Source: a virus. Taken from it: a stretch of DNA of 33,468 bases. Location: IMG/VR virus record IMGVR_UViG_3300030107_002290, positions 1-33,468 of that record; one strand, 5' to 3'. Under the pieces are notes generated by a model. It did no database searches. It was not told the DNA's origin and was given only the letters and a program-made list of their open reading frames with translations. Position 1 is the stretch's first letter. Every line of letters starts with the position of its first letter. A program made the position numbers and the translations under genes. Positions 1,406-28,984 of this stretch are shown here, in pieces.

Positions 1406-2860
1406 TTAAGACGTACGACGACGCTCAAAGATAAGCGGCAAGCAGTAGCGAGCATCACCGGGGATGCCACCAAATACAACCTGCGAGATGAACTTCAAGT
1501 AGTCACCGTAAACGTTAAGGTCTGACGCAGTTGCATCAGAAGTTACACTACCAGTTCTAGCAGTACCTGAAGTCGGAACTAAGAACTGGTCGGTAAGATG
1601 AACCTCACCGTTCCACTTCATGTCGTAGAACTTCTTAGCGTTCATGTTCTTAGACGCAAACTCTTTGGGCGGCGGCCCAACTTGAATGGTCTTAAACGCA
1701 TCAGCACCTACCAAGAACGCAACCTCGTAAGAACCTATCGTTGCGCTGCTAGTATCTATCTTAGTGTAGTTTGAATTAGGTACGGTTTTATCATTAACCA
1801 CAGATTGCGGAGCTATGAAATCACCGTTCTTAGCAAAGCGCAGCGGATACGGGTCGAACTTAGCGGTAATCTTACCGAACAAGTCACCAGCAAAACCATC
1901 TTGCAGAAGGTTCATGTTAGCTGGAGCAAGTGTGGTTGTTCTCGTATCACTATTACCAGAAGTAGCACTCCGTAAGCTATCATCCCACAACAACGAAGAC
2001 CAAGCCTCTGTAGAACAGATAAGAACGTATTTGCCTTTCGGCATCTCAGACTGCTTAGGAGCGTTATAGATACGATCAAACGTAGGAGCTTGAATATCTT
2101 CCTGCAACACAAGCATGGCTTTAAAGATTTCCTTCAAAGTCAACACGCCCACTTTTGCAGTACCGGTTCCTGCGCTACCAACGTCTTCACGCCACAGCTT
2201 ACCACCAGATTTAGACAACGTTTGACCAGCAGATCCGTCTGTGACAACATCAGTTTTATCATCGTCACCACCACCTGCACCAGTTACGTTTGTAATCTTA
2301 CGAATATCTCCTTGAGAATACGCACGTTTACGGTGATTAGCGTCTTTGTGAGTGACCTGTGAACTAAGTCCTTTACCTACAAGGTAAGCGTCAGGAGTCT
2401 GATAGTACATCAACGTACGAATAAAATGGTTATTCGCGCATTGAATCTGACGTACAATATCAGACTGAGCGTAGCTTAGGTGATCTCTCCAGAAGGCTTC
2501 AAAGTTTTCTAAGAAACGGAAACGATTCGACTCAAAACGGTGCATACCGAGCTGAGCTTCTTCGTAACGTTCTCCGACTGTGTACTGATCTTTCGCAGGA
2601 AAGCTAGACAACAGATTCGGCATAAACGTAATGTTTTGAACCGGAGAGGGTGTTGGAGTTGTGCCATTAAGCGTACTCCCCATATTAGGTGTCCACTTAA
2701 TCGAACCAAAAAGTGTATCGTACACATTCCACTTCGGATAAAGGGCAACCTCGTTTTTAGCAATGTAGTAACTAAGTGAATGAAAAGGTTCGTTCGCAGT
2801 TACACTAGCTGTATTATTTGCAACATTCTCAATGGCTGCTGCTGTTACTGAACTAGGCAT
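1406..2860 (-). CDS. Major capsid protein (probable), 484 aa
   Basis: The call rests mainly on order: terminase, portal, scaffold-like protein, then this gene, followed by a strong terminator, as in many tailed phages. The 484-residue protein begins MPSSVTAAAIENVANN, is soluble-looking, has no membrane segment or enzyme motif, and ends in a basic RRRTS tail. A Gly/Asp-rich stretch near residues 195-225 (GAGGGDDD) may be a surface loop or linker. Its length fits HK97-fold coat proteins of the larger P22/N4-like kind, but I could not assign a family from sequence alone. The ATG has no Shine-Dalgarno sequence and follows an AT-rich leader. A sigma-54-type promoter lies about 160 bases upstream, and hairpins plus a terminator-like structure fill the leader, so this gene appears to be separately regulated from the packaging genes. 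Confidence 0.75.
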   Translation of the reverse strand: MPSSVTAAAIENVANNTASVTANEPFHSLSYYIAKNEVALYPKWNVYDTLFGSIKWTPNMGSTLNGTTPTPSPVQNITFMPNLLSSFPAKDQYTVGERYEEAQLGMHRFESNRFRFLENFEAFWRDHLSYAQSDIVRQIQCANNHFIRTLMYYQTPDAYLVGKGLSSQVTHKDANHRKRAYSQGDIRKITNVTGAGGGDDDKTDVVTDGSAGQTLSKSGGKLWREDVGSAGTGTAKVGVLTLKEIFKAMLVLQEDIQAPTFDRIYNAPKQSEMPKGKYVLICSTEAWSSLLWDDSLRSATSGNSDTRTTTLAPANMNLLQDGFAGDLFGKITAKFDPYPLRFAKNGDFIAPQSVVNDKTVPNSNYTKIDTSSATIGSYEVAFLVGADAFKTIQVGPPPKEFASKNMNAKKFYDMKWNGEVHLTDQFLVPTSGTARTGSVTSDATASDLNVYGDYLKFISQVVFGGIPGDARYCLPLIFERRRTS

Positions 2861-3017: not shown

Positions 3018-3052
3018 AAGCACAATCCATGCCAAGGGCGCTATCTTCTAAA
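3018..3052 (-). promoter_or_regulatory. Candidate sigma-54 promoter for the capsid gene, with upstream TTTAGAAGATAG element
   Basis: Read leftward, TTGGCATG (3035-3028) is followed by GATT and GTGCTT, placing the -24 GG (3033-3032) and the -12 GC (3021-3020) exactly 10 bases apart as in sigma-54 promoters. The -24 half is near consensus; the -12 half reads GTGC instead of TTGC. TTTAGAAGATAG (3052-3041) sits exactly 5 bp upstream and overlaps the stop codon of the scaffold-like gene. The same element at the same distance flanks the sigma-54 promoter at 18514. The expected start is near 3008, giving a leader of about 150 bases. Confidence 0.7.
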
Positions 3053-4211: not shown

Positions 4212-4416
4212 CTTTTGTGTGTGCTAGAATTTCATCTAGTTCTGTCAGTTTTGCCACCAGCCTCACGGTAATCTCTGGGTTCTCGTGCTTGGCTGTAGCA
4301 AATTTCATTTCCTTTAGTAAGCGCTCTCTTCTACTTTCGAGCAGCTCACGGAAAATTCTTGTAGTTTGGCTTTCACACCATATATCAACCTGCTGGCGTA
4401 GTATTTCCTTGGTCAT
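4150..4416 (-). CDS. Small helical protein, 88 aa, overlapping portal and scaffold genes
   Basis: The 88-residue product (begins MTKEILRQQVDIW) is predicted helical and highly charged throughout residues 1-70, with an Arg-rich stretch ELLESRRERLLKEMK. It overlaps the 3' end of the portal gene by 32 bases and the 5' end of the scaffold-like gene by 62 bases, each in a different frame, which suggests translational coupling across the three genes. The clear amphipathic pattern and the way it bridges both neighbours argue that it is real and not a shadow. I do not recognise the family; a small head-assembly accessory protein would fit the position. Confidence 0.7.
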   Translation of the reverse strand: MTKEILRQQVDIWCESQTTRIFRELLESRRERLLKEMKFATAKHENPEITVRLVAKLTELDEILAHTKDANVITEHGSREVIDTTGRS

Positions 4417-6076
4417 TTCCTAGAACGTCCTGCACCTGTGATTGCAGTAACTGTAGTTGTTGTGCGAACGGTTGTGCTTCTTCCGAGAGCTGACCTGTCT
4501 GCTGGTCAACCACAAGGGAGTTCACAACCTGAAGTAGCTGCTGCAAGAGCGCGTTCTTGCGGTCATCCGTCTGTAGCATCTCTGCATACTCTTCACCCTC
4601 ATCGGGGAACATCAGCCTCATCATGTTCTGTAAGAAAACTGGCGCTAGCCCTGTCTGCGAAACGACGGGCCACGCTTGCATCATCTTCTGCGATTTCTCA
4701 GCACGCTCAATTACGTCTACGTCACCTGCCGGTTTGATGCTAAAGGTGTGGTTAAGGTAGAGATCGAGTGAAGCTGTAGGCCGCAACACTCCCGCTATCA
4801 CACGGGCTTGGTAAATGCGGAAGCAAATCTCGTAGACATCTTTGAGCGCAATGCTAAAGAGCGACACTTGCGTAGACGAAAGCATCTGCGCCTCACTAGA
4901 AGCTGCTTGAATCTCTGTGGCTGTCTTACGGCTGTCACGCCGGTTCATCGCCGCATAGTTTATCTGAGACTGCTCTTGAGCGTTCTGGCTGATAAGCGAT
5001 TGAATCGCACCAAGCATAGAAGAATCTGGCGGCGAAAGCTGAAACTGCTTGATGTTTGAGTCAATGAGCGCTCCCGGCTGAAACTTAACGCCCGTCTGTA
5101 CGTTAGTATTGTTGGGGTCTTCATTGTCCTTGGCAAAGTAAAAGTTCGAGGCGCGTCGATGCGCTGTTACGAACGATGACATCAGCGAGGTAATTGTTTC
5201 CTGCGCTGTGCGGTCTAGGAATGCACGGCCCGATGCGTTCTGTATGGCGCTATCCTCGTGAATGTTGTAAGGAAAGATAACGTACGGGTACTCTGTCTCG
5301 TCTACAAAGGTGTCACCCAAGCGCCGTCCGAGGTAGAGAGGTCGCGGCTCACGCAACCAATCATCACACTTATCACAACACGACCAGCCTACGAAAACCT
5401 TGCCGTCCTGCTTAAACATCACCTTCTCTATACGATAGAGTGACTCATCATGCAGGTATGTACCGGAGTCTCCGTCAGGATTGTCGTCCAGCAATATCTC
5501 CACAACATCCTCGTTAAAATCTTCTGTCTCACGTAGCTGCAACGCCGTGAAGTAATGGCGATGCACAAGCATCTCACACGCTTGTATGTCGCGTGTATCT
5601 GCTGGAAAGCCGAAGTCTTCGTAGTTGACGGCTTCAACGGCAAAATGCCCCGGCTTCTCTGTATCAAACAAGACCTCCGCTACGCTGTAGCCGTGCAGTT
5701 GCATACCATCAATGACCTTAAACAGAGGAACCTGCCAACCTGCATAACGGCTCTTATCAGTAAAGTCGCGTTCAAGAGAGCCAGTAGCTGCTGTCGGTTC
5801 TGTGATAGAAGTGAAGATCGCGGAGCGTCTGCTACCTGTCACATAAGCCACGTACTTCGACTGTTCGCGTCGAATGTTCGTGTCGATGATGTGCGCAGGT
5901 ACAAGAAACTCGTCCTCATCTAAGTAACCGTCAGCTCGCTCAGCTTCAACGTTAACGTCCAGTTTGCGCGAGTTTCTGTTCTCATCCGCAACAGTCTCTA
6001 AATCCGAGACAACGCTAAGAAGCTCTCGGATTTTAACCGTTGCATCCTCGTAATTTGTTAAATCAGTTGTTTGCAT
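4385..6076 (-). CDS. Portal protein, 563 aa
   Basis: The gene directly follows the large terminase (14-base overlap) and precedes the scaffold-like and capsid genes. The portal is the dodecameric ring at one capsid vertex through which DNA is packaged and to which the tail attaches. Visible features fit this: an N-terminal helical part, a central mixed region with a CDKC pair (about residues 236-239), a long helical stretch with AQETITSLMSSFVTAHRRAS and QSLISQNAQEQSQINYAAMNRR corresponding to the stem/crown helices, and a Gln-rich helical C-terminus (LLQQLLQVVN, QPFAQQLQLLQ) like the barrel helices of P22-type portals. The length is in the normal 450-750 range. I could not decide between portal families. 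Start is the ATG at 6076 inside the end of terL. Confidence 0.85.
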   Translation of the reverse strand: MQTTDLTNYEDATVKIRELLSVVSDLETVADENRNSRKLDVNVEAERADGYLDEDEFLVPAHIIDTNIRREQSKYVAYVTGSRRSAIFTSITEPTAATGSLERDFTDKSRYAGWQVPLFKVIDGMQLHGYSVAEVLFDTEKPGHFAVEAVNYEDFGFPADTRDIQACEMLVHRHYFTALQLRETEDFNEDVVEILLDDNPDGDSGTYLHDESLYRIEKVMFKQDGKVFVGWSCCDKCDDWLREPRPLYLGRRLGDTFVDETEYPYVIFPYNIHEDSAIQNASGRAFLDRTAQETITSLMSSFVTAHRRASNFYFAKDNEDPNNTNVQTGVKFQPGALIDSNIKQFQLSPPDSSMLGAIQSLISQNAQEQSQINYAAMNRRDSRKTATEIQAASSEAQMLSSTQVSLFSIALKDVYEICFRIYQARVIAGVLRPTASLDLYLNHTFSIKPAGDVDVIERAEKSQKMMQAWPVVSQTGLAPVFLQNMMRLMFPDEGEEYAEMLQTDDRKNALLQQLLQVVNSLVVDQQTGQLSEEAQPFAQQLQLLQSQVQDVLGNDQGNTTPAG

Positions 6077-7616
6077 TTTCTAAAAGTCTTTCATTCATCT
6101 GCTCTACCTCATAAATTAAATCTTCACTCCATCCAACAGACTTAAAGTGTCTGTGTGTTTCGCGTGGTCGCTGTAGCCGAGCGCGTAACGAGGAGTGCCG
6201 CTCTGGTTCTGGCTCGCTGATCTCGTTTAACTCGTACTGCACTACATCCCGTGAGACATAGCGCTGAGGCATTACGCCACGGTAGTCTGCAAAAGCAAGC
6301 ACGAAAGCGTCTGCCCTGTCAGGTGAAGCATGGCCTTTAGCCTTGGCCTGACGTTTGCTTTCCAACTGTATCTTGTTTTGCGGCGTGATCGTGTAATAAC
6401 GTGACGCAAGTTGTTTACGTAACGTAGTGTCTTTTGGGAGTATAATCTCACAGTTTTCTATGTGTTTGCCTACGCTAAACCATAGCTCAGCGCCTCTGTT
6501 TAAGTACGCCAGCTTGTTGTAAGGAGCTGCTTGGTTGAGGACATAATTGACAGGCCAACCATCACGACGCAACTGGTCAAGTATAGGCTTACCAAGCCCA
6601 CCAGCATCACCGTAAATAATGCTATTTGGATTATCCAAATCATACTTGTAGAAAACTTCTCCCAGCTTATCGAGCAATACCGTCGTATCTGCATACTTAA
6701 ACGCCTCCACACCAATCACTTTGTTACCGTTACGCACCACAACTACCTGCTCATCACCACCTGCTGACAAGTCAAGGCCAGCTATGTTGTAGTTGTCGGG
6801 TGCGTGTTCTATCTCCATGCTGTCCAGTTCTGCAATCGCGGAGAAGTTTATGACAACCTGCTCTTCCAAGCCGCCAAAGTCTGCTAGAACCATCGAGCGG
6901 TAGAGCGCAGAGTTCTCACCGTAGGTGTTGCGGATGTCGTTGATGTAGTCCTCGCTTAGGTGAGGACAGTCAAAAGCTGTTATGTGGTGATGTCGCCAAC
7001 TACCGCCAACACAGGCGTTGTAGAAGTGACCGGACGGTAGGCCGGGGCTGCTAACGTCGATGCGCTTGGTGAAGCCTGTGCAACGCGCTAGCGCCGTAAA
7101 GATGTCGTCGTGTATAGACTTGGCCTCACTCACCAATATGGCCATCTGACCTCCCGGCACAGGAGGATGCCAGCCCTCTGCTCGTCCAGCCTCATCCGTG
7201 ACGAACATCTCTATCGTCGAGCCGTTGATAAGGTTCTCGTAGCGCCGGTAGTTCTGCTTCCAAATCTGCGTGCCAAAGATTTTGTTTTGCGCATTGGTCA
7301 GTTGCTTAATGTATTTGTCGGTTTGCCGATCTAGCTGATTACCAGATGCCGAGGTTATGACCGTAAGGGAGTTTTCGTAGCGCAGGGAAAGCCAGACAGC
7401 ACAGGGCGCAACGATGAAGTTGTCCTTACCGCTACCGTTAGCTGCCCGAACTACAGCCTTGTACGGCTCGTCAGAAGTGGATGGCTCTGCAAACTCACGT
7501 AGTATCTTATCCTGCCAAGGATGCAGACTGAGATGACCGTCTAGTAGGTTATCATCGCACACGAGCAACATCTCGTGCGGGTTTTCAAACTTGATAACAT
7601 TGTTTTCGTAGTTCAT
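6063..7616 (-). CDS. terL: Terminase large subunit (packaging ATPase/nuclease), 517 aa
   Basis: TerL pumps DNA into the procapsid with ATP and cuts the concatemer. The N-terminal ATPase has a Walker A variant ANGSGKD (residues 59-65), where the final Thr/Ser is replaced by Asp, and a Walker B strand AILVSEA (159-165) with the catalytic Glu. A coupling-type motif VSSPGLPSG is near 188-196. The C-terminal RNase H-like nuclease shows GLDLSAGGDE (Asp282), YGDAGGLG (Asp337) and SPDRADAFVLAF (about 435-446), the usual three acidic positions. Start is ATG overlapping the TerS stop (ATGA). The portal gene overlaps its end by 14 bases. The Asp at the end of Walker A is unusual and worth noting, but all other motifs appear intact. 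Confidence 0.93.
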   Translation of the reverse strand: MNYENNVIKFENPHEMLLVCDDNLLDGHLSLHPWQDKILREFAEPSTSDEPYKAVVRAANGSGKDNFIVAPCAVWLSLRYENSLTVITSASGNQLDRQTDKYIKQLTNAQNKIFGTQIWKQNYRRYENLINGSTIEMFVTDEAGRAEGWHPPVPGGQMAILVSEAKSIHDDIFTALARCTGFTKRIDVSSPGLPSGHFYNACVGGSWRHHHITAFDCPHLSEDYINDIRNTYGENSALYRSMVLADFGGLEEQVVINFSAIAELDSMEIEHAPDNYNIAGLDLSAGGDEQVVVVRNGNKVIGVEAFKYADTTVLLDKLGEVFYKYDLDNPNSIIYGDAGGLGKPILDQLRRDGWPVNYVLNQAAPYNKLAYLNRGAELWFSVGKHIENCEIILPKDTTLRKQLASRYYTITPQNKIQLESKRQAKAKGHASPDRADAFVLAFADYRGVMPQRYVSRDVVQYELNEISEPEPERHSSLRARLQRPRETHRHFKSVGWSEDLIYEVEQMNERLLENANN

Positions 7617-7969
7617 CCCTCCATAACACGCAGCTCGTTTATACGATCTTGAGCCTTTTGCAGACGATCTGTGAACTGTGAGAACTCCATAGTCGCCTTC
7701 GACTTCTCCTTATCGTACTGCTTCTCCATGATAAACTTAGCTGCGTCAGCACGCACACGCTCGTTCTCGCCGTAGTGCATCAGTTCCTCCAAAACTTTAA
7801 TCGCAGCATCGCCAAGGTCATCCAGCTTCTGAACTGCTTGACTAGCAGACGGTGATTCAGGTGCTACGACATCCACAATCTCCTTGTCATAACGCAAGTC
7901 TTTGGAAATTTCCTCGTTAGAAAACCCCATGCGCTTTAGTTGGTAGATTTGCTCGTTTGCTGTACTCAC
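7613..7969 (-). CDS. terS: Terminase small subunit (probable), 118 aa
   Basis: The protein lies immediately upstream of terL with a 4-base overlap. Its N-terminus (residues about 5-33, QLKRMGFSNEEISKDLRYD) reads as a helix-turn-helix of the type that TerS uses to recognise the packaging site, and the remainder (residues 45-118) is helical with a likely oligomerisation coiled coil (FTDRLQKAQDRINELRVMEG). The start is GTG, overlapping the TGA of the upstream 1263-residue gene. The length of 118 is at the short end for TerS. The assignment is from context plus HTH-like N-terminus. Confidence 0.75.
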   Translation of the reverse strand: MSTANEQIYQLKRMGFSNEEISKDLRYDKEIVDVVAPESPSASQAVQKLDDLGDAAIKVLEELMHYGENERVRADAAKFIMEKQYDKEKSKATMEFSQFTDRLQKAQDRINELRVMEG

Positions 7970-10900
7970 GGCCCCGGCACTATTATCTGCACACCTCCAC
8001 CAGAATCTATCTGAACATTTAGATCAGGTATTTTAAATGGATTATCTAAACCTACATTGTCTGCTATTCTCTGATAGCCTCCCGGCTGATAGTCTTTTAA
8101 CCTAGACACTATGTTAAGTTTATCACCAAAATCAAACTCAGGAAGTTTAAGATTTCTTAAAGCCGCGTTTATGACAACAGGTTGGTAATTGAAGTTTGCT
8201 ATAGCTCCGATGTTTAAGTTATCCAATTCACGAGTTCCGTACATTACGTCACTAAAGCTGCCGCTTAGTTTTTCTTCAAGCTCATCAGTAAACTCCTTTG
8301 TGTACTTATTACCGCTTTTAATTTCTTTTGGAGCATATTGCAATGATACTGCTAATGTAAATGAAAGAGCTTCAGCAGGAGATTTTCCGTCAGCAATAAA
8401 GTCGTCATAGAAGCCTTTAATTTGGTTAACGTTTAAAGTACCTGCACCTGTGTTTTTTGGCCATACATCTAAAACATCACCTAAAGTGTCTTTTGCAGCT
8501 TTTGTTAAGTTGCTGCTTAACTCAGTTGCCTGTGTGTTTATCTCGTCTACGCTTAGATGCGGCGGCTCTACGAAATCAGATGGCGTTTCACCAGAAGGCA
8601 TTTGAATAGTTTTATAGTCTTCATATTCAAGGTCTTCTGGTAGTGTATAAACTTTATCACCAGCTTTAGCATCATAGCCTAGCAATTCACCGTCCTTTCT
8701 AACGTGACTAGAGTAATTAACGTTAGCATCTACAACATTTGTTTGCTTAGCTTGTATAAGGTAATTTACTACAGATTGATCGTAGTCTTGATATCTGTAC
8801 CCATACGTTACAGAGCCGTCAGCATTTTCGCTTGCTACTAACTCCAGTCTTTGCGGAACATTTAAAACTCTGCCCGTTTCAATAAGACGACCTTCAGCGT
8901 CAAACTCAAACTCCTTCATAGGAATTGTTCTGACCTCTTTTACGTCTTCTGGTAAATTCTCAAGCACTTTGTCCCAGTCACCAGAAATGTCGTCATCAGT
9001 AGGCAGCGATTCTGAAGGCTCTTCTGTTCCGGGGTCAAATTCTATAACATCTCTTGCAGGAGGCTTAAACAAGTCGTTTGCAATCTTAATGTCTACAGTC
9101 TCACCATCACCTAAGTCTGTCGGTATATCTGCAATTTTACCTAACGTGCTTGGGTCTGGTACGTTTTCTGGCATAACCGCTAACTCAGCGGCCTCTGCTG
9201 TTAAAGGTGTAAAAGCTCTTGTAAGACCGCCAAAAGGTGTAGTGCCTGTTGTTGCACCCAAGCGAGGACGAGTTTCAACTTCTGGCACAAATGTAAGCGT
9301 ACCTAACGTAGCTATGTCTCTGCCAAAAGCATCTGTAACAGGCTCACGCGGAAGCAAGCTGCTAGTAACGCCGGGAGCTAAGCCAGCACTTACGCCCATG
9401 CCTGTGAACGGACTTTCAGCTACGGGTGGTGCTATGTCTAAAGTGATTGGATCTCTAGTTTCTATAGGAGCAGTTGGCCTAGAACCTCCGATGCCACCGC
9501 CTACTCCCGTGCCGCTACCTGTGGCAGGAGTACGTGAAGGTGTTGTCGTTATAGGAGCAATGCTGACTCCTTCACCGAAAGCTGATCCAATAGGTGCTTC
9601 TGTTCCCGGCCTAGACGTTACCTGACCTGTTACATTCTGACCACTTGCAGGAGACGTTGAAAACGGCAATCCAGTTCCCGGCGGTGTTATCTGCCCTACA
9701 GAAGGAAAATCTGTAGGATTAACAACAACCGTAGCTTCTGGTTCAAGGTACTCTGCGAAAGTCTGTGGCTTGTCACCTTCAAACAAACTCTCAAACTGAG
9801 AGCGCAAGTTCGCGTCGTCTGGTGCGTTTTCGTTTATCTTTTGGAAAATGTTCTCTACGAAAAATCTGCCTATAGGCCGCATCACCTCACCAGAAAACTC
9901 TACAACATCACTAAACAAATTACCGCTGTAGTCTGCCTCCTTAAACGTAGCCACGTTCAGTATCTGCGGAGTTATTTTTCTTAGCGTGTTTGTGATCTGA
10001 AGTCCTAGAACTGCGGCTGTTGCTTGCGGAGCTGTGGCAGCTATCGTAGCCAGCGTAGCAAGTGCGCCTACGTTAAGGCTTCCATACTTCTGCTTGTCTA
10101 TTTCACTAAGACCTGTGCCAGTTGCAAGCTGGAGAAGTCCCTTAAGCGTAGGAAATTTGGGGTCATAAGTGCCTATGGACTTTCTGCTATCACCTTCAAG
10201 CTCTATAAGCGTAGAAACTTCGGAGTTTAGCTCTGCGATTGTATTGCCAAGTTTTTTAACGTTTTCTGTTACACGATCAAGTAGTGGTTTCTTTTGCTCT
10301 GCTGGCCCGTAAGGAGTCTCTCCAAACAGCCCTTTCTGCCAGTTATCAACAGCTTCCTTTAAATTGTCTAAACCGTCTGAAAACTTCTTGCGAACGCCGG
10401 GATGCTCGTAAAAGCGGAAGTCTTCTGCGTCACCTGCGCCGGTCATCGCCTGTTTTTCAGCGTCTGTAAAGCGTACGCCTAACCATTGCTCAAGCACCGA
10501 AACGTCATCTCTTACGTAGTCGAAGGGGTCTTTTGTGCCTTCGATACCCTCACGCGCTTCAACAAAGACTGTATCACCAGCTTCTGTAGCTCTGTCGCTT
10601 ACAAGATCAGCAATGGCTCCGCGAAGGCCATCTGACATAGTTTCATCAGAAAACTCCCAAGGGTTCGGGTTTTGCCAGAATGCTCCATCTGGTACATCTG
10701 CGATAAACTCTCTCAAGCGCCGGTTTTTCGCAGCATCGTAATCACTCAGGTCTATCTTAGGTATGTTAGCAAGGATGTCGTCTACTGAAATGTCTGGAAA
10801 TTCTGTTCCAAGGTAAATTCCTTGTAAGTCTTTGTCGATTTCCTTACCTAAATTATGCCACGGTACTGGATCGCCAGTAAACGCATCAGCAGGTTCTCCT

Positions 10901-11757
10901 AGAAGTTGCTGCCTAACATCAGCGTAACCTTGAGGGCCGCTGAACGAAAAGGCATTTAAGCCACCTTTTAGGTATTGCTGCCCCGTAGAGTCTGGATAAC
11001 GTGACGTTAGAGGCATATCAAGCACTAAGCCTCTTGTCGGCTCTCCTGTTCTGTAGATGCCTAATGGTCTTGTATCAACAGCCCCTGCTGCGTATGGGTC
11101 ACGCTCAGGGTATGTGGGGCGCTCGAAATATGTTTTGCCTGTGAGATCGCTGCCAAAGAGCTTGTTAACAACATCAAGCCCTTTATCCATCTGTATCTCT
11201 TCTGGTGTACGAGTGTCTATTGGCGTTGGAGCTGTTGGCGTGATAGGAGTTACAGCAGGAGTTCCTTGTAAGCCGCTTGCTGATTCTGTTATCTGCGGTA
11301 GCTCTAGCTGCTTCTTAGGCGTTTCCGTAACAGTTTGTCCAGCAGGAGGAGTTACTTGTAAGCCGGGTAGCTGTGTATCTGCTGGAGAACCTGTCGCACC
11401 GCCTTGCCACCCGCCTCCTGCTTTAGCTATGGGTCGGGTGTCGGCCTGTTGAAAGCCTGTCAGCGTTGGCGACAGTATGTTTGTGTAAATGTCTTTAAAC
11501 GCTGGCGTACTGTACAGGTAGTCGTAGTAGCCGCCTCCTACTGTCGGATTGGCAAGAGCCGAAGCGTAGTTTGTCGGCCTACCAGACGACATGAACTCAC
11601 CCGGCACATACAACGAGAAGTCGTCGCCGCGTGGAGTTGCTGTTAGCCCTTGATCGCCAAAACGATCTACAGCCGCATCTATAAGACCTTGAGGCCCACC
11701 GGGAAATTCAGAAAGCGCAGAGAGATAGTCAACTCCCGTGAAAGCTGGCGTTGCCAT
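7966..11757 (-). CDS. Very large protein of unknown function, 1263 aa
   Basis: This single ORF starts MATPAFTGVDYLSAL and takes up the start of the packaging operon. Residues about 110-200 and 680-860 are Pro/Thr/Gly/Ser-rich low-complexity linkers (for example GSGTGVGGGIGGSRP). Between them, residues about 480-640 include charged helices and a hydrophobic stretch (VGALATLATIAATAPQATAAVLGLQI, about 565-590) that could be a membrane-inserting helix. The C-terminal 300 residues look globular. No enzyme motif was recognised. Proteins of this size and modular, linker-rich build in phages are often internal or ejected virion proteins, but here it precedes the terminase genes, which is unusual for those. 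The ATG is preceded by CAGGA about 11 bases upstream; its stop overlaps the GTG start of terS. Confidence 0.8.
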   Translation of the reverse strand: MATPAFTGVDYLSALSEFPGGPQGLIDAAVDRFGDQGLTATPRGDDFSLYVPGEFMSSGRPTNYASALANPTVGGGYYDYLYSTPAFKDIYTNILSPTLTGFQQADTRPIAKAGGGWQGGATGSPADTQLPGLQVTPPAGQTVTETPKKQLELPQITESASGLQGTPAVTPITPTAPTPIDTRTPEEIQMDKGLDVVNKLFGSDLTGKTYFERPTYPERDPYAAGAVDTRPLGIYRTGEPTRGLVLDMPLTSRYPDSTGQQYLKGGLNAFSFSGPQGYADVRQQLLGEPADAFTGDPVPWHNLGKEIDKDLQGIYLGTEFPDISVDDILANIPKIDLSDYDAAKNRRLREFIADVPDGAFWQNPNPWEFSDETMSDGLRGAIADLVSDRATEAGDTVFVEAREGIEGTKDPFDYVRDDVSVLEQWLGVRFTDAEKQAMTGAGDAEDFRFYEHPGVRKKFSDGLDNLKEAVDNWQKGLFGETPYGPAEQKKPLLDRVTENVKKLGNTIAELNSEVSTLIELEGDSRKSIGTYDPKFPTLKGLLQLATGTGLSEIDKQKYGSLNVGALATLATIAATAPQATAAVLGLQITNTLRKITPQILNVATFKEADYSGNLFSDVVEFSGEVMRPIGRFFVENIFQKINENAPDDANLRSQFESLFEGDKPQTFAEYLEPEATVVVNPTDFPSVGQITPPGTGLPFSTSPASGQNVTGQVTSRPGTEAPIGSAFGEGVSIAPITTTPSRTPATGSGTGVGGGIGGSRPTAPIETRDPITLDIAPPVAESPFTGMGVSAGLAPGVTSSLLPREPVTDAFGRDIATLGTLTFVPEVETRPRLGATTGTTPFGGLTRAFTPLTAEAAELAVMPENVPDPSTLGKIADIPTDLGDGETVDIKIANDLFKPPARDVIEFDPGTEEPSESLPTDDDISGDWDKVLENLPEDVKEVRTIPMKEFEFDAEGRLIETGRVLNVPQRLELVASENADGSVTYGYRYQDYDQSVVNYLIQAKQTNVVDANVNYSSHVRKDGELLGYDAKAGDKVYTLPEDLEYEDYKTIQMPSGETPSDFVEPPHLSVDEINTQATELSSNLTKAAKDTLGDVLDVWPKNTGAGTLNVNQIKGFYDDFIADGKSPAEALSFTLAVSLQYAPKEIKSGNKYTKEFTDELEEKLSGSFSDVMYGTRELDNLNIGAIANFNYQPVVINAALRNLKLPEFDFGDKLNIVSRLKDYQPGGYQRIADNVGLDNPFKIPDLNVQIDSGGGVQIIVPGP

Positions 11758-11763
11758 ACATTA

Positions 11764-11913
11764 TTATTCCTGTTTCCCCCCTAGGAAATCGTAGGAAGAA
11801 GAATTTTGCTGTGCCGCCCAGTAACGAAGCAACGGAGTGTTTTCGCAGAGCGTGATAGTATCGGTCGAGAAGTTGTTGTCCATACCCCCGCCAAATAGCA
11901 ATTCCCGTGCCAC
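11764..11913 (-). CDS. Possible small protein, 39-49 aa
   Basis: A short leftward reading frame ends 6 bases before the 1263-residue gene. From the GTG at 11913 it encodes 49 residues (VARELLFGGGMDNNFSTDTI and so on, ending YDFLGGKQE); an internal ATG at 11883 gives 39 residues (MDNNFSTDT onward). The composition reads like protein (RELLFGGG, ENTPLLRYWAAQQN) much better than the overlapping alternative frame, which becomes Arg/Ser/Thr-rich. Upstream of 11913 this frame has a stop, but another frame (MTSETFWLEDTVRATLQREG, start at 11987) looks protein-like up to that point, so a longer gene with a frameshift is possible. No function recognised. Confidence 0.45.
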   Translation of the reverse strand: MARELLFGGGMDNNFSTDTITLCENTPLLRYWAAQQNSSSYDFLGGKQE

Positions 11914-12131: not shown

Positions 12132-12599
12132 TTACTTCTTAGCTTGCCGTTGCATCTCCTGACGCATGACTTCGTTAAGTTGCTCCTGCAACTCGCTTTC
12201 GCGTTTCGTGTCGCCCTTGGCCTTGGCCTTGTCCATCGCCGCGATGATCTCGAAGCTGCTAGTCATAGCTTTCTTTTGCTTGGTGGCGTCCGACTCCTTG
12301 GCGGTGAACATAGTGTCCACTAGGTTTTCGGCGGCGACACGCTTCTCGTCAAGGCTGAGCGTGTCCTTGCGCTTAGACTCGCCCTTAGGCTGTACTGTTT
12401 GCGCTGTCCCGAACTTGCCATTGAAACGCATCGCGACCTCGTCTTGGTATTTGTCATGCGCTCCACGCTCGTCTGCTAGTTGTTCGATCAACTCGATGTC
12501 CGCGCTCGCGATACCATACGTCTGCTTCCCGTTGCTATTGGTGATTAACACAAGACCCTTCTTGATCTCGTCCACTAGTCTCTTCTCTTCTTTTGTCAT
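12132..12599 (-). CDS. Hypothetical charged helical protein, 155 aa
   Basis: This is the first gene leftward from the divergent control region. It has its own near-consensus sigma-70 promoter (12632-12659) and its own terminator (12087-12125), so it looks like an independent, probably early, unit. The product begins MTKEEKRLVDEIKKG, is rich in Lys, Glu, Ala and Gln, and its last 60 residues are almost certainly helical (IIAAMDKAKAKGDTKRESEL). No membrane segment, HTH or catalytic motif was recognised. The ATG is preceded by CTTACTAAA with no Shine-Dalgarno sequence, a leader ending nearly identical to that of the gene at 19080. Function unknown. Confidence 0.75.
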   Translation of the reverse strand: MTKEEKRLVDEIKKGLVLITNSNGKQTYGIASADIELIEQLADERGAHDKYQDEVAMRFNGKFGTAQTVQPKGESKRKDTLSLDEKRVAAENLVDTMFTAKESDATKQKKAMTSSFEIIAAMDKAKAKGDTKRESELQEQLNEVMRQEMQRQAKK

Positions 12600-12631: not shown

Positions 12632-12659
12632 ATCCTAGCACGTCCTATCGTAGAGTCAA
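12632..12659 (-). promoter_or_regulatory. Sigma-70-type promoter, leftward
   Basis: Read leftward: TTGACT (12659-12654), 16-base spacer, TAGGAT (12637-12632). It faces the 155-residue gene starting at 12599. Two AGAAGAT motifs (12687-12694 and 12709-12717, minus strand) lie just upstream. Confidence 0.65.
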
Positions 12660-12726
12660 CCCTTTATTTTAAAAAACTTTCATTACATCTTCTAAAGTTT
12701 TTTGTCACTATCTTCTGAGCTGCCGA

Positions 12727-12797
12727 GCCGTAGAAGTTCTCAGTAGTTAACTGAGAGCGGCAGCGCCAGCCGTCCCTAGTAGTTAACGTAGGGCGGC
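12727..12797. repeat. Twin related hairpins sharing AGTAGTTAAC
   Basis: Unit 1 (12727-12761): GCCG ... CTCAGT-AGTTA-ACTGAG ... CGGC. Unit 2 (12769-12797): GCCG-T-CCCTA-GTAGTTAACG-TAGGG-CGGC. Both share outer GCCG/CGGC arms and the central AGTAGTTAAC sequence, while the inner stems differ in sequence but remain paired. They may be protein-binding sites or RNA hairpins in a control region. Confidence 0.6.
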
Positions 12798-12798
12798 G

Positions 12799-13024
12799 TA
12801 GAAGATACGTTGTCAGTTGTGCTAATCATCACATTCTGACAAGGGCGTGATACACACCTCGCTAGGGGGGTGGTGTCAGGTAGGTGGTTCTATATGTTAA
12901 TATATATATAATTGTATATATATCTACATATTGTATAAAAGGATACACCATACACCCATCCCCCCACGTAGGTACTCACGTTGTCAGAATGCACTGTTCA
13001 TCACAACTGACAACGCTGCTTCTA
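12799..13024. repeat. 226-bp interrupted inverted repeat with AT-only core (candidate replication origin)
   Basis: Left and right halves are in exact register about the centre 12911/12912. Perfectly paired blocks are TAGAAG (12799-12804 with 13019-13024), CGTTGTCAGTTGTG (12808-12821 with 13002-13015) and CATTCTGACAA (12832-12842 with 12981-12991). Further imperfect pairing with small offsets includes CGTGA/TCACG and a G6 run opposite C6. The centre (about 12891-12931) is nearly all A/T and itself largely palindromic. Dyad-symmetric protein sites around an AT-rich unwinding core, between divergent operons and beside the helicase gene, fit an origin; a divergent operator is the alternative. Confidence 0.75.
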
Positions 13025-13092
13025 TCGCGCTCGCTAGACTCGCTTCGCTCGCTACCATAGAAGATAACACCCCATCCGCTAGAAGAAAAAAC

Positions 13093-13121
13093 TTGACATT
13101 CAGCGGCGGTTGTGGTAGTGT
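13093..13121 (+). promoter_or_regulatory. Sigma-70-type promoter for the rightward early region
   Basis: TTGACA (13093-13098), a 17-base spacer, then TAGTGT (13116-13121) preceded by TGTGG. It points to the 47-residue gene at 13171 and the helicase gene. The -35 is perfect; the -10 keeps the essential first T, A and last T. TAGAAGAA lies directly upstream at 13080. Confidence 0.75.
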
Positions 13122-13170
13122 GTTAGCGGTTGTTGGAGACTACGAGAGTCGTCAGCAGCTACGCTAGAAG

Positions 13171-13314
13171 ATGAAAGACAACAAACATAGAAGATACGAT
13201 GGGCTAGACAGAGTTCTAGCAGAGCGTCGCCGTGAGGCGGCATTAGTGTGTGGGAGTATGCTACTGCTGTTTGCTACGGTAGCAGCGCTCTTTGCGTTAG
13301 GAGGTGCGCTATGA
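13171..13314 (+). CDS. Small single-pass membrane protein, 47 aa
   Basis: The first rightward gene encodes MKDNKHRRYDGLDRVLAE, an Arg-rich cytoplasmic-looking segment (AERRREA), then a hydrophobic helix of about 20 residues (CGSMLLLFATVAALFALGG), ending at once. Positive-inside charge distribution predicts the N-terminus in the cytoplasm. It is directly downstream of a sigma-70 promoter and its TGA overlaps the next ATG. Early-expressed tiny membrane proteins of phages often act in takeover, superinfection exclusion or lysis timing, but there is nothing to choose among these. The coding start includes two copies of the TAGAAGAT motif. Confidence 0.7.
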   Translation: MKDNKHRRYDGLDRVLAERRREAALVCGSMLLLFATVAALFALGGAL

Positions 13315-13748
13315 TTACGCTAGACGAGAAGCTATTCGCAGACCTTGTGATAGGTGGAAGATCGTGGGTTATCGTAGACGAGGAAGTCAAAGCTGCGATA
13401 GACAACAGCGACTACGGTAGCGACAACATGGTATGCGAGAACGACCCTGACGTTGTAGGTTGGAGCGGTGTTCGCATAGGCCAAGTCCCTGCGGTAGGCA
13501 TCAGCGATAGTGGCAAGCAGCTCTATCGGCTATGGCGGCGCGAGGAGTACAAGATCGTTGGCAACCTAGCACGGGAGCGCCGCGCTCAGCGAGAAGCTGC
13601 AATCGCCAAGCGAGAAGCTGCGGCCCAAGCTGCGATAGATGAGCTACGTGACCGTATGAAAGCCCTTGGCATAGACGAGAAACTAACCCAGCAGATGTTT
13701 GACACTATGAATGTCGATGACATACGCAAACTGATAGGCTTAGCATGA
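13311..13748 (+). CDS. Hypothetical protein, 145 aa
   Basis: The start chosen is ATG 13311, which overlaps the previous stop and has a strong AGGAGG six bases upstream; a longer frame from 13248 would overlap the 47-residue gene and lacks such a site. The N-terminal 85 residues look globular (VGWSGVRIGQVPAVGISDSGKQLYRL), followed by a charged helix rich in Arg/Glu/Ala (about residues 85-115) and a small C-terminal helical unit (MFDTMNVDDIRKLIGLA). No known family recognised. It overlaps the helicase gene by 4 bases and could be a helicase accessory protein by position only. Confidence 0.75.
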   Translation: MITLDEKLFADLVIGGRSWVIVDEEVKAAIDNSDYGSDNMVCENDPDVVGWSGVRIGQVPAVGISDSGKQLYRLWRREEYKIVGNLARERRAQREAAIAKREAAAQAAIDELRDRMKALGIDEKLTQQMFDTMNVDDIRKLIGLA

Positions 13749-15238
13749 CCGCAACTACTAAAGACATCCCCTTTCAGAAGACAGCAGCCCTTGAGCTAGC
13801 AGATAAGCTGCTGAAAGAGCGAGGCGCTCTGCTACAAGCTGGAACTGGCGTAGGCAAGACCTACATTACGGCGCAAGCCCTCAAACAGGTGATCCCTACG
13901 CTACTAGAACGCGAAGCACCGGACACGCCCTTTCCTATCCTCTGGATTGGCCCCGCTGCTACGATGATTCAGACTCAGCGTGTGCTGAAAAGCTACGGCA
14001 TTGCCCAGTACGTTATGACACTCAGCTACTCTGCGCTCACTTCTCCTAAGACAGGCGGCGCTATGTTCTACCAGACGCGCACCGAAGTGACATACGGGCA
14101 GGAGCAGATAGTGTACGACTGGCGTGAGTGTATGTTGCCTCGTCTCGTAGTCTTTGATGAGTGCCAAGCGCTCAAGAATGAGGAGTCTACGCGCACGGCT
14201 ATCGCACGAGGGCTACCGGATAGCGTCAAGCGTCTGTTTATCAGCGCCACGCCCTACCAGCGAGTGTGTGAGGCACGTACGGTGATGGTTGGCGTAGGTA
14301 TGCGCTCCGAGTACAACGTCCTGCCGCTATCGCAAGGGACAGCGCCCTCGGTTATGCGCTCCCTCGCAACCTACGGTAACACCTCAGCGTACAGCCCCCG
14401 CGCAATGGAGAAAGTCAAAGGCGTTATGCAACCGTATACGGTAAACGTCAAAGGCATACGTTTCAAACACAAGGCGCATACAGAGTGCGTCCTCATAAAC
14501 TTCCAGCGCTCCGAGGAACGTCAGGCGTACGAGAACGCGTACAACGAGTACCTAGAGGAGTTGTTCAAGCTACGAGGCCAGACAGGTCACGGTATCCTAG
14601 CAGCTCGGCTAGTGGCGATGCAGAAGTTTCGCCAAAAGGCTGAGGAGATACGCTCGCCCATCGTTGCCGGTCGCGCACACAACGCCATACAAGAAGGCTC
14701 GCAGGTTATCATAGCCAGCAACTTCAAGAATATGTTGCGCGGTGCATGGCAAGCCCTCACGAAACGCTACGGTTACGACCCAGATCGTATCGGTTTTGTT
14801 ACCGGCGGCCAGACAGCAGAGCAGCGACAGCGTCACGTAGACGAGTTCCAAGCTGGTAAGCGAGACGTTATGCTACTGACGATGCAAGCCGGTGGTGTAG
14901 GTATCAGTCTACACCACGAGCAGGACGAGGCTAGACCTCGCCATATCATACTGCCGCCAACGTGGTCTGCGATAGACCTCATCCAATGTCTAGGCCGCAG
15001 CCATCGCATAACCTCACGCAGCAACACACTCCAAGAAGTCCTGTGGTACAGGAACACCATCGAGGAGCGAGTCGCTGCTGTCGTAGAAAACAAGGTCAAG
15101 TGCATTAACAAGGCCGTCTCCGCTAAGGAACAATGGGCATCGCTGTTCGCACCGAACGTAGACGATGAACTCGGTAACGTAGATGCTGACACGGACAGCG
15201 AAGTTGACTACGGTCTTGACGAAGGGCTACTGCAATGA
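13745..15238 (+). CDS. SNF2-type superfamily 2 helicase/translocase, 497 aa
   Basis: ATP-dependent DNA translocase or helicase, probably for replication initiation or recombination. Motifs in order: a Q-motif-like PFQKTAALEL (9-18), Walker A GTGVGKT (33-39), motif II DECQ (138-141), motif III SATP (167-170), a second RecA-like domain with VIIASNFKNM (about 317-326), LLTMQAGGVGISLH (motif V) and motif VI QCLGRSHR (414-421) with the arginine finger. The DECQ box and the LTMQAGGVGISLH / QCLGRSHRITS pattern resemble phage SNF2-like helicases. The length fits a minimal two-domain enzyme without extra DNA-binding domains. The gene is 4 bases overlapped on both sides and lies next to the candidate origin. 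Confidence 0.9.
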   Translation: MTATTKDIPFQKTAALELADKLLKERGALLQAGTGVGKTYITAQALKQVIPTLLEREAPDTPFPILWIGPAATMIQTQRVLKSYGIAQYVMTLSYSALTSPKTGGAMFYQTRTEVTYGQEQIVYDWRECMLPRLVVFDECQALKNEESTRTAIARGLPDSVKRLFISATPYQRVCEARTVMVGVGMRSEYNVLPLSQGTAPSVMRSLATYGNTSAYSPRAMEKVKGVMQPYTVNVKGIRFKHKAHTECVLINFQRSEERQAYENAYNEYLEELFKLRGQTGHGILAARLVAMQKFRQKAEEIRSPIVAGRAHNAIQEGSQVIIASNFKNMLRGAWQALTKRYGYDPDRIGFVTGGQTAEQRQRHVDEFQAGKRDVMLLTMQAGGVGISLHHEQDEARPRHIILPPTWSAIDLIQCLGRSHRITSRSNTLQEVLWYRNTIEERVAAVVENKVKCINKAVSAKEQWASLFAPNVDDELGNVDADTDSEVDYGLDEGLLQ

Positions 15239-17495: not shown

Positions 17496-17757
17496 CTTCC
17501 GCACGCCAAGCGGCGCACATAAGATAGGTGACATCGACGAAGACACGGAGATAGCTATGCTTAGCCCCGACGATACGACATACGATAAGCGTGACGTAGT
17601 GTTCACCAGCGACAAGTCAGAGATGCTTCGGCTACTCAAGGAAGGCTGGGACGCTATGCTAGGTCGCCACTACCGTGAGCGTAAGGCTCTTGAAACGTTC
17701 ACACCCACAGACTACAGCCGCTACCGTGGTTTCACAGATCACGTATACCATGACTGA
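17476..17757 (+). CDS. Hypothetical protein, 93 aa
   Basis: Begins MSIVRVNFRTPSGAHKIGDI; overlaps the previous gene by 20 bases and the sigma-54 activator gene by 8. It is acidic in the middle and ends with a Tyr/Arg/His-rich segment. Its immediate coupling to the activator gene makes it a candidate regulator or partner of that protein, but there is no sequence motif to support this. Confidence 0.65.
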   Translation: MSIVRVNFRTPSGAHKIGDIDEDTEIAMLSPDDTTYDKRDVVFTSDKSEMLRLLKEGWDAMLGRHYRERKALETFTPTDYSRYRGFTDHVYHD

Positions 17758-18487
17758 GAAAGAAAGATACCTAGCGTTCGCGCAAGCTGTCCAAGACTAC
17801 AGCACAGTTGACGCTGCAACAAAGCGCACGGTAGAAGCTGCCGTCAAGCTAGCGCCACGCAGCGAACCCGTACTCATCACAGGTGAGACAGGCACAGGTA
17901 AGGAACTCATCGCTCGTATACTTCACGGTACACGTAGCGGTGAGTTCTCTACCGTGAACACGACAGCCGTAACCGATACGCTCTTTGAGAGTGAGCTGTT
18001 CGGCCACCTCAAGGGTAGCTTTACCGGTGCTTTCCGAGACAAGACCGGCCTCGTAGAACACGCTGCCAACGGTACGCTGTTCCTCGATGAGATAGGCGAT
18101 ATGCCCTACGACCTACAGGCCAAGGTGCTACGCTTCATTCAGTTCGGCACGTACCGTAAAGTTGGTGACAACGAAGAGCGTACAGCTAACTGCCGAGTTA
18201 TCGCAGCAACCTGCGCTCCGCTACAAGACTTGATCGCCTCCGGTCGCTTTCGTAAAGACCTATACTACCGACTCTCCACTTTCAACCTACACCTAACTCC
18301 CCTACGTGAGCGGCCCTACGACGCTGTTCACTACGTAGGCGAGAACCTAGACACAAACACCGAGGACTACGATACCTTCCTAGACTACGCTAGCAATGCA
18401 ACCTTAGAAGGTAACTACCGTGAGCTAGAACAAGCAATCCTGCGATACGACGTTCTAAAAGAATTACCCACGCAACCTAGAAGATAG
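17750..18487 (+). CDS. Stand-alone sigma-54 activator AAA+ ATPase (bacterial enhancer-binding protein core), 245 aa
   Basis: This family uses ATP hydrolysis to remodel the closed complex of sigma-54 RNA polymerase. All hallmarks are present: Walker A GETGTGKE (45-52), the sigma-54-contacting loop GSFTGA (89-94; canonical GAFTGA with A to S, keeping Phe, Thr and Gly), Walker B LFLDE (110-114), sensor I RVIAAT, an arginine-finger segment RKDLYYRL, the PLRERPYD motif and the sensor II region LEGNYRELEQ (equivalent to PGNVRELEN). There is no N-terminal receiver, GAF or PAS domain and no C-terminal Fis-type HTH; the protein ends about 20 residues after sensor II. It is therefore a constitutive core domain, similar in scope to PspF(1-275). 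ATG 17750 is used because earlier starts fall in the preceding gene. A sigma-54 promoter directly follows its stop. Confidence 0.92.
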   Translation: MTEKERYLAFAQAVQDYSTVDAATKRTVEAAVKLAPRSEPVLITGETGTGKELIARILHGTRSGEFSTVNTTAVTDTLFESELFGHLKGSFTGAFRDKTGLVEHAANGTLFLDEIGDMPYDLQAKVLRFIQFGTYRKVGDNEERTANCRVIAATCAPLQDLIASGRFRKDLYYRLSTFNLHLTPLRERPYDAVHYVGENLDTNTEDYDTFLDYASNATLEGNYRELEQAILRYDVLKELPTQPRR

Positions 18488-18530
18488 AAAAAAAGTTTTA
18501 GAAGATAGAAGATTTGGCATGAATCTTGCT
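18478..18530 (+). promoter_or_regulatory. Sigma-54 promoter with TAGAAGATA repeats, for the replication operon
   Basis: TTGGCATG (18514-18521), AATC, TTGCT (18526-18530): the -24 GG and -12 GC are exactly 10 bases apart and both halves are near consensus (TTGGCACG-N4-TTGCT), only C to T at one place. TTTAGAAGATAG (18497-18508) lies 5 bp upstream. TAGAAGATAG also occurs at 18478-18487 (21 bp, two helical turns, upstream, overlapping the activator stop codon) and TAGAAGAT at 18506-18513 abuts the -24 box. The expected start is near 18541, 50 bases before the ATG at 18592. Confidence 0.85.
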
Positions 18531-19079: not shown

Positions 19080-19673
19080 ATGGACAACGACACTATAGAT
19101 ATTGTAGTAGGCAAGCTCAAGAAACCTGAGCGTAAGTCGAACTCTCCGCTACGAGTTAAGCGCTCATCGTACACTGAGACTAGCGCAGAAACAGTCAAGC
19201 CCATCCTAGACAAGCTACTGAACGATGCTAAGGACGTATTCGTACCGGCGCTTGGCACAGGCTACACCGCACGTACGTTATTCGTTAAGATAAACGATGG
19301 ACTTTTATGGTACATGGAGAACTCTGATGAGCCAGATGACTACATCTTGCTACGTTCTCAGATCGCATTGCGTACCATATACGACAACGAGAACCCCGGT
19401 GTTCTAGTGTACTTCAAACGTGGTATGCGCAAGATTCGTCGCAAGAACCACGAAGGCAAGGCGCTAGAGTTTCACACGACCGACAGCTCGCTTTGGCGGC
19501 ATAACGTAGTGCGCTGGTTAGAGTCTGCCACGGAAGGCAAGATGTTTGAGAGCGGTAACATAGAAGAGCCGCTAACAGATGACGACGAGCGCTGGCTGCG
19601 TGACACGCTAGCTACGATGGCTCCCGATGCGGAGATGTTATTCAAGGACAATAGCTTCCGCATCATACGATGA
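19080..19673 (+). CDS. Hypothetical protein, 197 aa
   Basis: ATG 19080 (MDNDTIDIVVGKLKK) is chosen; a frame from 19029 would run through the stem-loop and begins with a Cys-rich stretch unlike protein. The product has a basic N-terminus (residues 12-30), a central region RTLFVKINDGLLWYMENSDEPDDY, a basic patch KRGMRKIRRKNHEGK and an acidic C-terminus. The mixture suggests a nucleic-acid-associated protein, without an identifiable family. The leader ends TTACTAAA, as in the gene at 12599. Its stop overlaps the next ATG. Confidence 0.75.
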   Translation: MDNDTIDIVVGKLKKPERKSNSPLRVKRSSYTETSAETVKPILDKLLNDAKDVFVPALGTGYTARTLFVKINDGLLWYMENSDEPDDYILLRSQIALRTIYDNENPGVLVYFKRGMRKIRRKNHEGKALEFHTTDSSLWRHNVVRWLESATEGKMFESGNIEEPLTDDDERWLRDTLATMAPDAEMLFKDNSFRIIR

Positions 19674-28590: not shown

Positions 28591-28984
28591 AACGCAACAA
28601 GTCCCACGCACCTTCGTACTCGTGGTACTTCTGGCCATCCAAGAAAATCTTCAACGTCTTCGTCGTTACATCTTTGACAGGCAGTATCCAGTAGCGATTA
28701 CCTTCAATCGAGCAGCAGATGAAGAAGTCTATCATAGTTTCATCGTAGCTCATTTTATTTACGTTAGTACCGTGCGTCAGACTAAAAGCGTAGTGAGGGC
28801 CGTGACCACCTACGTTAAGCGCAAGGCGCTCAGTACACTTCACTTGAATGCGGCAAATATGGTTGAGCTTTTCAGCTATCAGATCGTAGTAGGAGTTATC
28901 ACCGAAGGGGAACGAGATGCTCCAGCCGCGCTTCATCAACTCCTGCGCTACTAGAAGTTCCCCCCTGACCCCTACAGATTTCAC
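28589..28984 (-). CDS. I-Ssp6803I-like PD-(D/E)XK endonuclease, 131 aa
   Basis: Pattern GELLVAQELMKRGW (Glu9), FPFGDNSYYDLIAE with the catalytic Asp (about 34), and RIQVKCT (Gln47, Lys49) matches the small PD-(D/E)XK family that includes the homing endonuclease I-Ssp6803I and phage resolvase-like nucleases. It could be a free-standing homing endonuclease or a Holliday-junction-type enzyme. The start is GTG, overlapping the stop of the giant polyvalent gene (GTGA), so it is translated as part of the leftward late transcript. No intron was recognised nearby. Confidence 0.8.
   Translation of the reverse strand: MKSVGVRGELLVAQELMKRGWSISFPFGDNSYYDLIAEKLNHICRIQVKCTERLALNVGGHGPHYAFSLTHGTNVNKMSYDETMIDFFICCSIEGNRYWILPVKDVTTKTLKIFLDGQKYHEYEGAWDLLR

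Follow-up and report, generated by a model that had tools for sequence, protein, structure and literature searches.

A fixed AT-rich core between fast-changing, matched inverted arms: a candidate replication origin in an uncultured phage family

Between two divergent operons of a linear virus record of 33,468 bases, analyzed here at its full length (the window; its genome is denoted W), lies a dyad in which two inverted arms flank an AT-rich core. The pairing of these arms is kept while the arm sequence moves fast. The dyad is functional-looking, a view supported by its being kept in place across about 29 related contigs. On comparative sequence evidence, the reading that fits best is that the element is the phage replication origin, with two inverted initiator sites flanking an unwinding element; the chances for and against this reading are about balanced. 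Cis-acting sites seldom combine a fixed melting core with matched arms that outpace silent sites. It is rare for the origin of an uncultured phage to be located from sequence; the comparative data here yield a precise candidate across a marine-type phage family.

The outer arms occupy positions 12799–12842 (left arm, plus strand) and 12981–13024 (right arm, minus strand, an inverted copy of the left), and 35 of their 44 positions are complementary in one register, with no indel, around an axis at 12911/12912. The runner-up axis anywhere in the window pairs only 27 of 44. The local ungapped inverted-repeat score is 30.75, against 16.2 ± 1.3 (maximum 22.0) when the whole window was dinucleotide-shuffled 200 times, and a blastn self-match on the reverse strand returns the same interval, 12799–13024 (67%, E 9e-13). 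The initial annotation described blocks of 6, 14, and 11 bp paired perfectly around one center without an indel, and this is exact: TAGAAG, CGTTGTCAGTTGTG, and CATTCTGACAA share a common register around the axis. It also described an in-register inverted repeat of 226 bp. That description stands for the outer arms, which lie far above the shuffles, and fails for the inner stretch: the left spacer (12843–12886) pairs with the right spacer at chance level (14/44). Each core half pairs at 19 of 25 positions and is quasi-symmetric, helped by AT alternation. The element is a repeat with 44-bp arms and a quasi-symmetric core rather than a 226-bp repeat.

The left arm consists of the outer TAGAAG followed by a 34-bp arm, GTTGTCAG...CTGACAA, and an equivalent arm occurs in relatives. 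TAGAAG belongs to the over-represented 8-mer TAGAAGAT, so its pairing is not independent evidence for an arm-specific site. A palindromic structure within each arm was considered and rejected: half-sites (TTGTCAG/CTGACAA) can be seen, but most lineages show no significant symmetry inside an arm, and the long-range dyad is therefore the robust feature. The arm sequence forms a single pair per genome, with no further copies.

The AT-rich core (12887–12945), a putative DNA unwinding element, sits on the dyad axis and is, in W, the least stable 50-bp window within the entire 33-kb window. For 18 of 20 elements, nearest-neighbor duplex energies place the least stable 50-bp duplex of the locus within the element, and for all 20 it lies no more than 16 bp from the axis; many of these loci are genome fragments, for which the minimum is locus-wide rather than genome-wide. 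The proposal that the core is suited for unwinding is borne out by this minimum at the dyad center, which speaks for an origin. The core is not AT-only, as had been stated: its longest pure A/T run is just 17 bp (12897–12913), and A+T makes up 82% of the 60 bp around the axis. The right spacer (12946–12980) separates the core from the right arm, and the left spacer is purine-rich in several relatives. In L026, L028, L029, L031, L120, and L124, the left spacer is 84–95% purine and the right spacer 3–32% (top strand), a mirrored strand bias that exceeds that in the window.

The dyad was put forward in the initial annotation prior to any testing, and its recurrence in relatives was the first test run. 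A nucleotide search of 50,697 phage records gave no match to the window. Named phages share distant proteins only, with best matches below 60% identity (polymerase, helicase, terminase, and activator), and for that reason no host is assignable; a GTDB genome scan produced a single 29% match, to a Gemmatimonadetes MAG, which is uninformative about the host. The relatives are IMG/VR contigs from profile scans with the helicase, the terminase, and a protein like P0001 (a candidate partner protein, see below), and they belong to one uncultured phage family. Recurrence was scored by scanning whole loci for ungapped inverted repeats, with a score of at least 22 as the threshold for counting. The contigs that carry the dyad at the same place, between divergent operons, number about 29; they are not independent and represent roughly nine arm types. 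The element is usually the strongest inverted repeat of its locus and a lone outlier (score 22–46, against a background mostly below 18). Weaker or doubtful dyads occur in L125/L052 and L049 (score about 19) and in L055/L122 (about 15), and L035, L070, L071, and L072 are equivocal. Arms differ by lineage (e.g. GTTGACAATAG..., GATAACAG..., GTTGACTAATAAGTTAGTCAAC, and GTTGATTATTAAATTTATTTA...), and both arms of any genome match each other. The dyad keeps its position across helicases with an identity of only about 43%, and its arm ends are often GTTGA/TCAAC-like. An even arm-to-arm span does not hold as a rule, with odd spans in L031, L120, and L056.

W, L003, and L004 are near-identical genomes, with helicases 99% identical, and among them the parts of the element evolve at very different rates. 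Divergence is 0–2% in the AT core, 5–12% in the direct repeats left of the core, and 26–50% in single arms. The repeats in question are two plus-strand copies of AGTAGTTAAC... (12742–12797, starting at 12742 and 12778), each able to form a small hairpin with its surroundings; by eye, repeats of different sequence occupy the corresponding position in L006 and L007. Pooled, the arms differ by 31, 40, and 34% in the three comparisons, whereas fourfold sites within the helicase gene differ by 13–14% (Fisher p 0.004, 3e-6, and 1e-4). The two arms tend to change in concert, with matching changes at 3, 5, and 4 positions (permutation p 0.007, <0.001, and 0.002); these numbers are small, the three comparisons share sequences, and the P-values were computed on chosen comparisons. 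The initial annotation predicted that alignment with relatives would reveal conserved blocks and drifting spacers. The reverse is seen: in the closest relatives, no part of the intergenic region diverges more than the arms or less than the AT core.

Arms that outpace fourfold sites yet remain matched might also arise by concerted mutation, in which template switching between the arms corrects one by the other, no protein reads them, and any function lies in the core. The relatives L029 and L125 fit this idea, sharing a two-sided arm change despite identical aligned sequences of P0003, the second candidate partner protein. However, a neutral quasi-palindrome should be lost, and this element has kept its place across the distantly related helicases; nor are the arm-adjacent spacers homogenized. 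Considering both sides, mutation of this kind is an improbable explanation of the whole element.

To the left of the dyad, minus-strand genes include a terminase (6063–7616) and a portal-like protein (4385–6076). On the right, plus-strand genes encode an SF2 helicase (13745–15238; Pfam and PHROG matches), a PD-(D/E)XK nuclease, a Sak4-like annealing protein, an SSB, a family A polymerase (PolA), and a DUF3987 primase. The helicase gene is a near neighbor of the dyad in the relatives used; the location between divergent operons and the adjacent helicase gene, both part of the original proposal, are confirmed. No tRNA was found in the window. Predicted sigma-70 extended −10 promoters lie on both flanks and read away from the dyad: P_L (TTGACT-16-TAGGAT, 12632–12659, minus strand), with a similar site in L003, and P_R (TTGACA-17-TAGTGT, 13093–13121, plus strand). 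Both rest on consensus match, and P_R gains weight from comparable right-hand sites, 21–87 bp past the right arm, in most relatives; by the same criteria, L026 and L124 have no right-hand sigma-70 site. On the left, relatives show either a distance of 92–150 bp from arm to sigma-70 promoter or no left sigma-70 match. A 47-aa ORF with a hydrophobic stretch (13171–13314, plus strand) lies just past the predicted right promoter.

Arms that keep pairing although their sequence is not conserved classically point to a folded strand, and the arms might be read as a hairpin of single-stranded DNA or RNA whose structure, not sequence, is recognized. A precedent exists in HSV, where the origin-binding helicase binds a hairpin that Box 3 and Box 1 form in unwound OriS (PMC12543377). 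In the phage element, a pairing constraint alone should not exceed the neutral rate. Its mismatches comprise 51 of wobble type on the top strand, 78 on the bottom strand, and 110 transversions, i.e. no top-strand excess, in elements that are not independent. Because the sigma-70-like promoters on both flanks point outward, the element is probably no transcript hairpin, and an RNA would need another promoter. A structured RNA element was rejected on these grounds together with the lack of an Rfam match, and a hairpin in general is very unlikely.

For a replication origin, several features can be named besides the melting core. The right early operon carries the helicase, SSB, Sak4, PolA, and primase genes, and the arms are a lone pair per genome, unlike dispersed promoters or operators; on that count, the arms were rejected as dispersed phage promoters or stoperators. 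No integrase occurs among the proteins scanned. In the proposed mechanism, the two inverted arms would be binding sites for a phage initiator complex. The symmetrically bound complex would open the AT-rich core, the weakest duplex of the genome, and the opened core would allow the helicase/primase/polymerase set to be loaded in both directions. Rapid concerted arm change might then represent a shifting specificity of the initiator–site pair, and competition with related phages or satellites perhaps drives it, although this is speculative. What the sequences show is the dyad in its recurring place, arms that covary, a weak and conserved core, and promoter-like sites on both flanks; a replication start here, protein binding to the arms, and the identity of any binder are inferred. 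Other results are less favorable. The GC-skew check, proposed with the original description, was run and gave no clear support for an origin: the cumulative minimum lies off the element in most genomes. A purine-skew minimum does fall at the element, but gene orientation alone accounts for it. No known initiator was recognized in the Pfam/PHROG scans, and both candidate partner proteins are without a significant fold match.

HSV OriS is the nearest working analogy, and it is an analogy only; membership in that class is not claimed. OriS and OriL are located between divergent genes. In OriS, inverted protein-binding boxes flank an AT-rich spacer, and the SF2 helicase OBP/UL9 binds the boxes (PMC12543377). 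Like the HSV origins, the phage element has inverted arms round an AT-rich core and an SF2 helicase gene near, but virus and sequence are unrelated, and arm spacing and length differ. In HSV, sequence-specific OBP boxes go with a conserved partner, whereas the phage arms vary and the SF2 helicase does not; since this helicase is 99% identical where the arms differ strongly, it cannot be the sequence-specific partner. The lambda ori is adjoined by an AT-rich stretch. Iteron-type origins (lambda, PLE) resemble the phage element in their repeated, partly palindromic sites in non-coding DNA; iterons are, however, several direct repeats, and the phage element is one inverted pair. The ori of the PLE satellite contains RepA_N iterons with inverted repeats, lies in non-coding DNA, and has a dedicated initiator (PMC7145576). 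No RepA_N-type or lambda O-type match was found in the protein scans.

The window also encodes a sigma-54 activator AAA+ domain (17675–18487, plus strand; PF00158, E 2e-56) with a GSFTGA loop and no DNA-binding domain. The activator is matched in 24 of 25 related records, where the ORFs are 239–305 aa long. Sigma-54-type −24/−12 matches lie at 11897–11912 (minus), 18515–18530 (plus), and 3019–3034 (minus), upstream of the large left virion gene, a 135-aa gene after the activator, and a 484-aa gene, respectively; the first two recur in corresponding positions of many relatives. A consensus scan of the whole window gave 14 −24/−12 matches against 18 expected, which is not above chance, so the case for these promoters rests not on number but on sites that match exactly or nearly so and that recur in position among relatives. 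From sequence, these genomes seem to drive their virion genes from sigma-54-type promoters through an activator of their own. No described phage with this arrangement was found in the literature searched, which is not proof of absence.

These promoters bear on a second reading of the dyad, a divergent early/late regulatory switch: the arms might be operators for a phage regulator that loops DNA and controls the divergent promoters, or an enhancer through which the sigma-54 activator helps to turn on the left operon, that of the virion genes. Phages commonly have two-site operators whose specificity changes. The element resembles divergent phage operator/promoter regions in lying between divergent promoters and in having paired symmetric sites, and predicted sigma-70 promoters occupy both of its flanks. 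TAGAAGAT is the most over-represented 8-mer of the window (13 copies, against 1.09 expected). It clusters round the dyad (12687–13195: 12687 on the minus strand; 12799, 13058, 13165, and 13188 on the plus strand) and recurs at 18478, 18499, 18506, 11958, and 3043, just upstream of sigma-54-type promoters. A motif common to the arm edges and the phage promoters suggests regulation and counts against an origin. Furthermore, a sigma-54-type promoter lies about 200–260 bp left of the element in L026, L028, L029, L031, L120, and L124.

Other observations fit a switch poorly. Unlike typical divergent operator regions, the arms lie off the promoters, with no overlap, and the distance from the right arm to the −35 varies from 21 to 87 bp; the left sigma-54-type promoter lies anywhere between about 200 and 1700 bp from the element. 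No arm copy occurs near other promoters. The activator consists of the AAA+ domain only, without the C-terminal DNA-binding domain that an enhancer role would call for. A switch also leaves the duplex-stability minimum at the axis unexplained. Taken together, a regulatory role is the main rival to an origin, possible but unlikely, and it weighs more than either concerted mutation or a hairpin.

Two inverted sites with partly fixed ends and a variable interior also recall recombinase sites. Yet the proteins compared with Pfam/PHROGs included neither a recombinase nor ParA/ParB, the core orientation is identical across W, L003, and L004, and the terminase genes are about 5 kb distant. A recombination, partition, or packaging site is extremely unlikely.

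If a protein reads the arms, two genes are candidates for it. The first gene to the left of the dyad encodes P0001 (155 aa, 12132–12599, minus strand). When W is compared with the two relatives closest to it, P0001 has a dS of 0.59 and 1.11, against about 0.03–0.33 for most backbone genes. In the L046 clade, a P0001 homologue is the first gene right of the dyad and starts 89–117 bp past the element, the homology being supported by a profile comparison of the W and L046 clades (E 1.7e-5, probability 78%). For the protein that takes this first-gene place in the L031 clade, no homology to P0001 was detectable. The structural model of P0001 (pLDDT 81) has no significant match.

P0003 (197 aa, 19080–19673, plus strand) is conserved in the family, with a hypervariable N-terminal half. 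It is present in 28 of 28 genomes with enough sequence and also in most records searched. Among W, L003, and L004, the N-terminal half carries 26–31 replacement changes at dS 0.40–0.61, and the C-terminal half is nearly fixed (1–2 changes). P0003 was considered as a helix-turn-helix protein from a motif seen by eye (GYTxxTLxVK) and rejected, its model (pLDDT 74) having matched nothing significantly; Alba/IF3-like matches were weak (Z about 5) and did not rise above noise. P0003 type and arm type fit each other in W, L003, and L004, but L028, L029, and L125 switch arms with nearly identical P0003, and in L029 and L125 the arm change is shared on both sides; P0003 therefore stays a lead only. 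The comparison of P0003 with the arms leaves out the arm distances for pairs among L028, L029, L125, and L120, whose windows are out of register. The divergence patterns of P0001 and P0003 mark both as old-allele genes like the arms, which is a correlation only.

Such patterns would fit arms under diversifying selection at an origin or master switch, matched to each other and to whichever allele of a specificity protein the lineage carries (P0001, the N-terminal half of P0003, or both), a tentative idea that is probably not the right one. If it were true, a fixed melting core with private arms would bar co-infecting relatives or satellites from each other's replication start. Diversifying selection by competitors or satellites is speculation; the pattern would open a conflict over specificity at a viral origin to direct testing.

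At the right end of the window, a 1495-aa ORF (28981–33468, minus strand) is cut by the contig end; it has no PHROG match and a weak Pfam match to ART-PolyVal (E 0.033). Besides P0001, further high-dS genes are P0003 and three virion-operon genes. Two of the latter (951–1334 and 1406–2860, minus strand) have a dS of about 0.8–1.1 between near-identical genomes, and the third (7966–11757, minus strand), compared at the protein level only, has 39% protein identity between such genomes. Divergence so far above that of the backbone suggests allele swapping among the virion genes.
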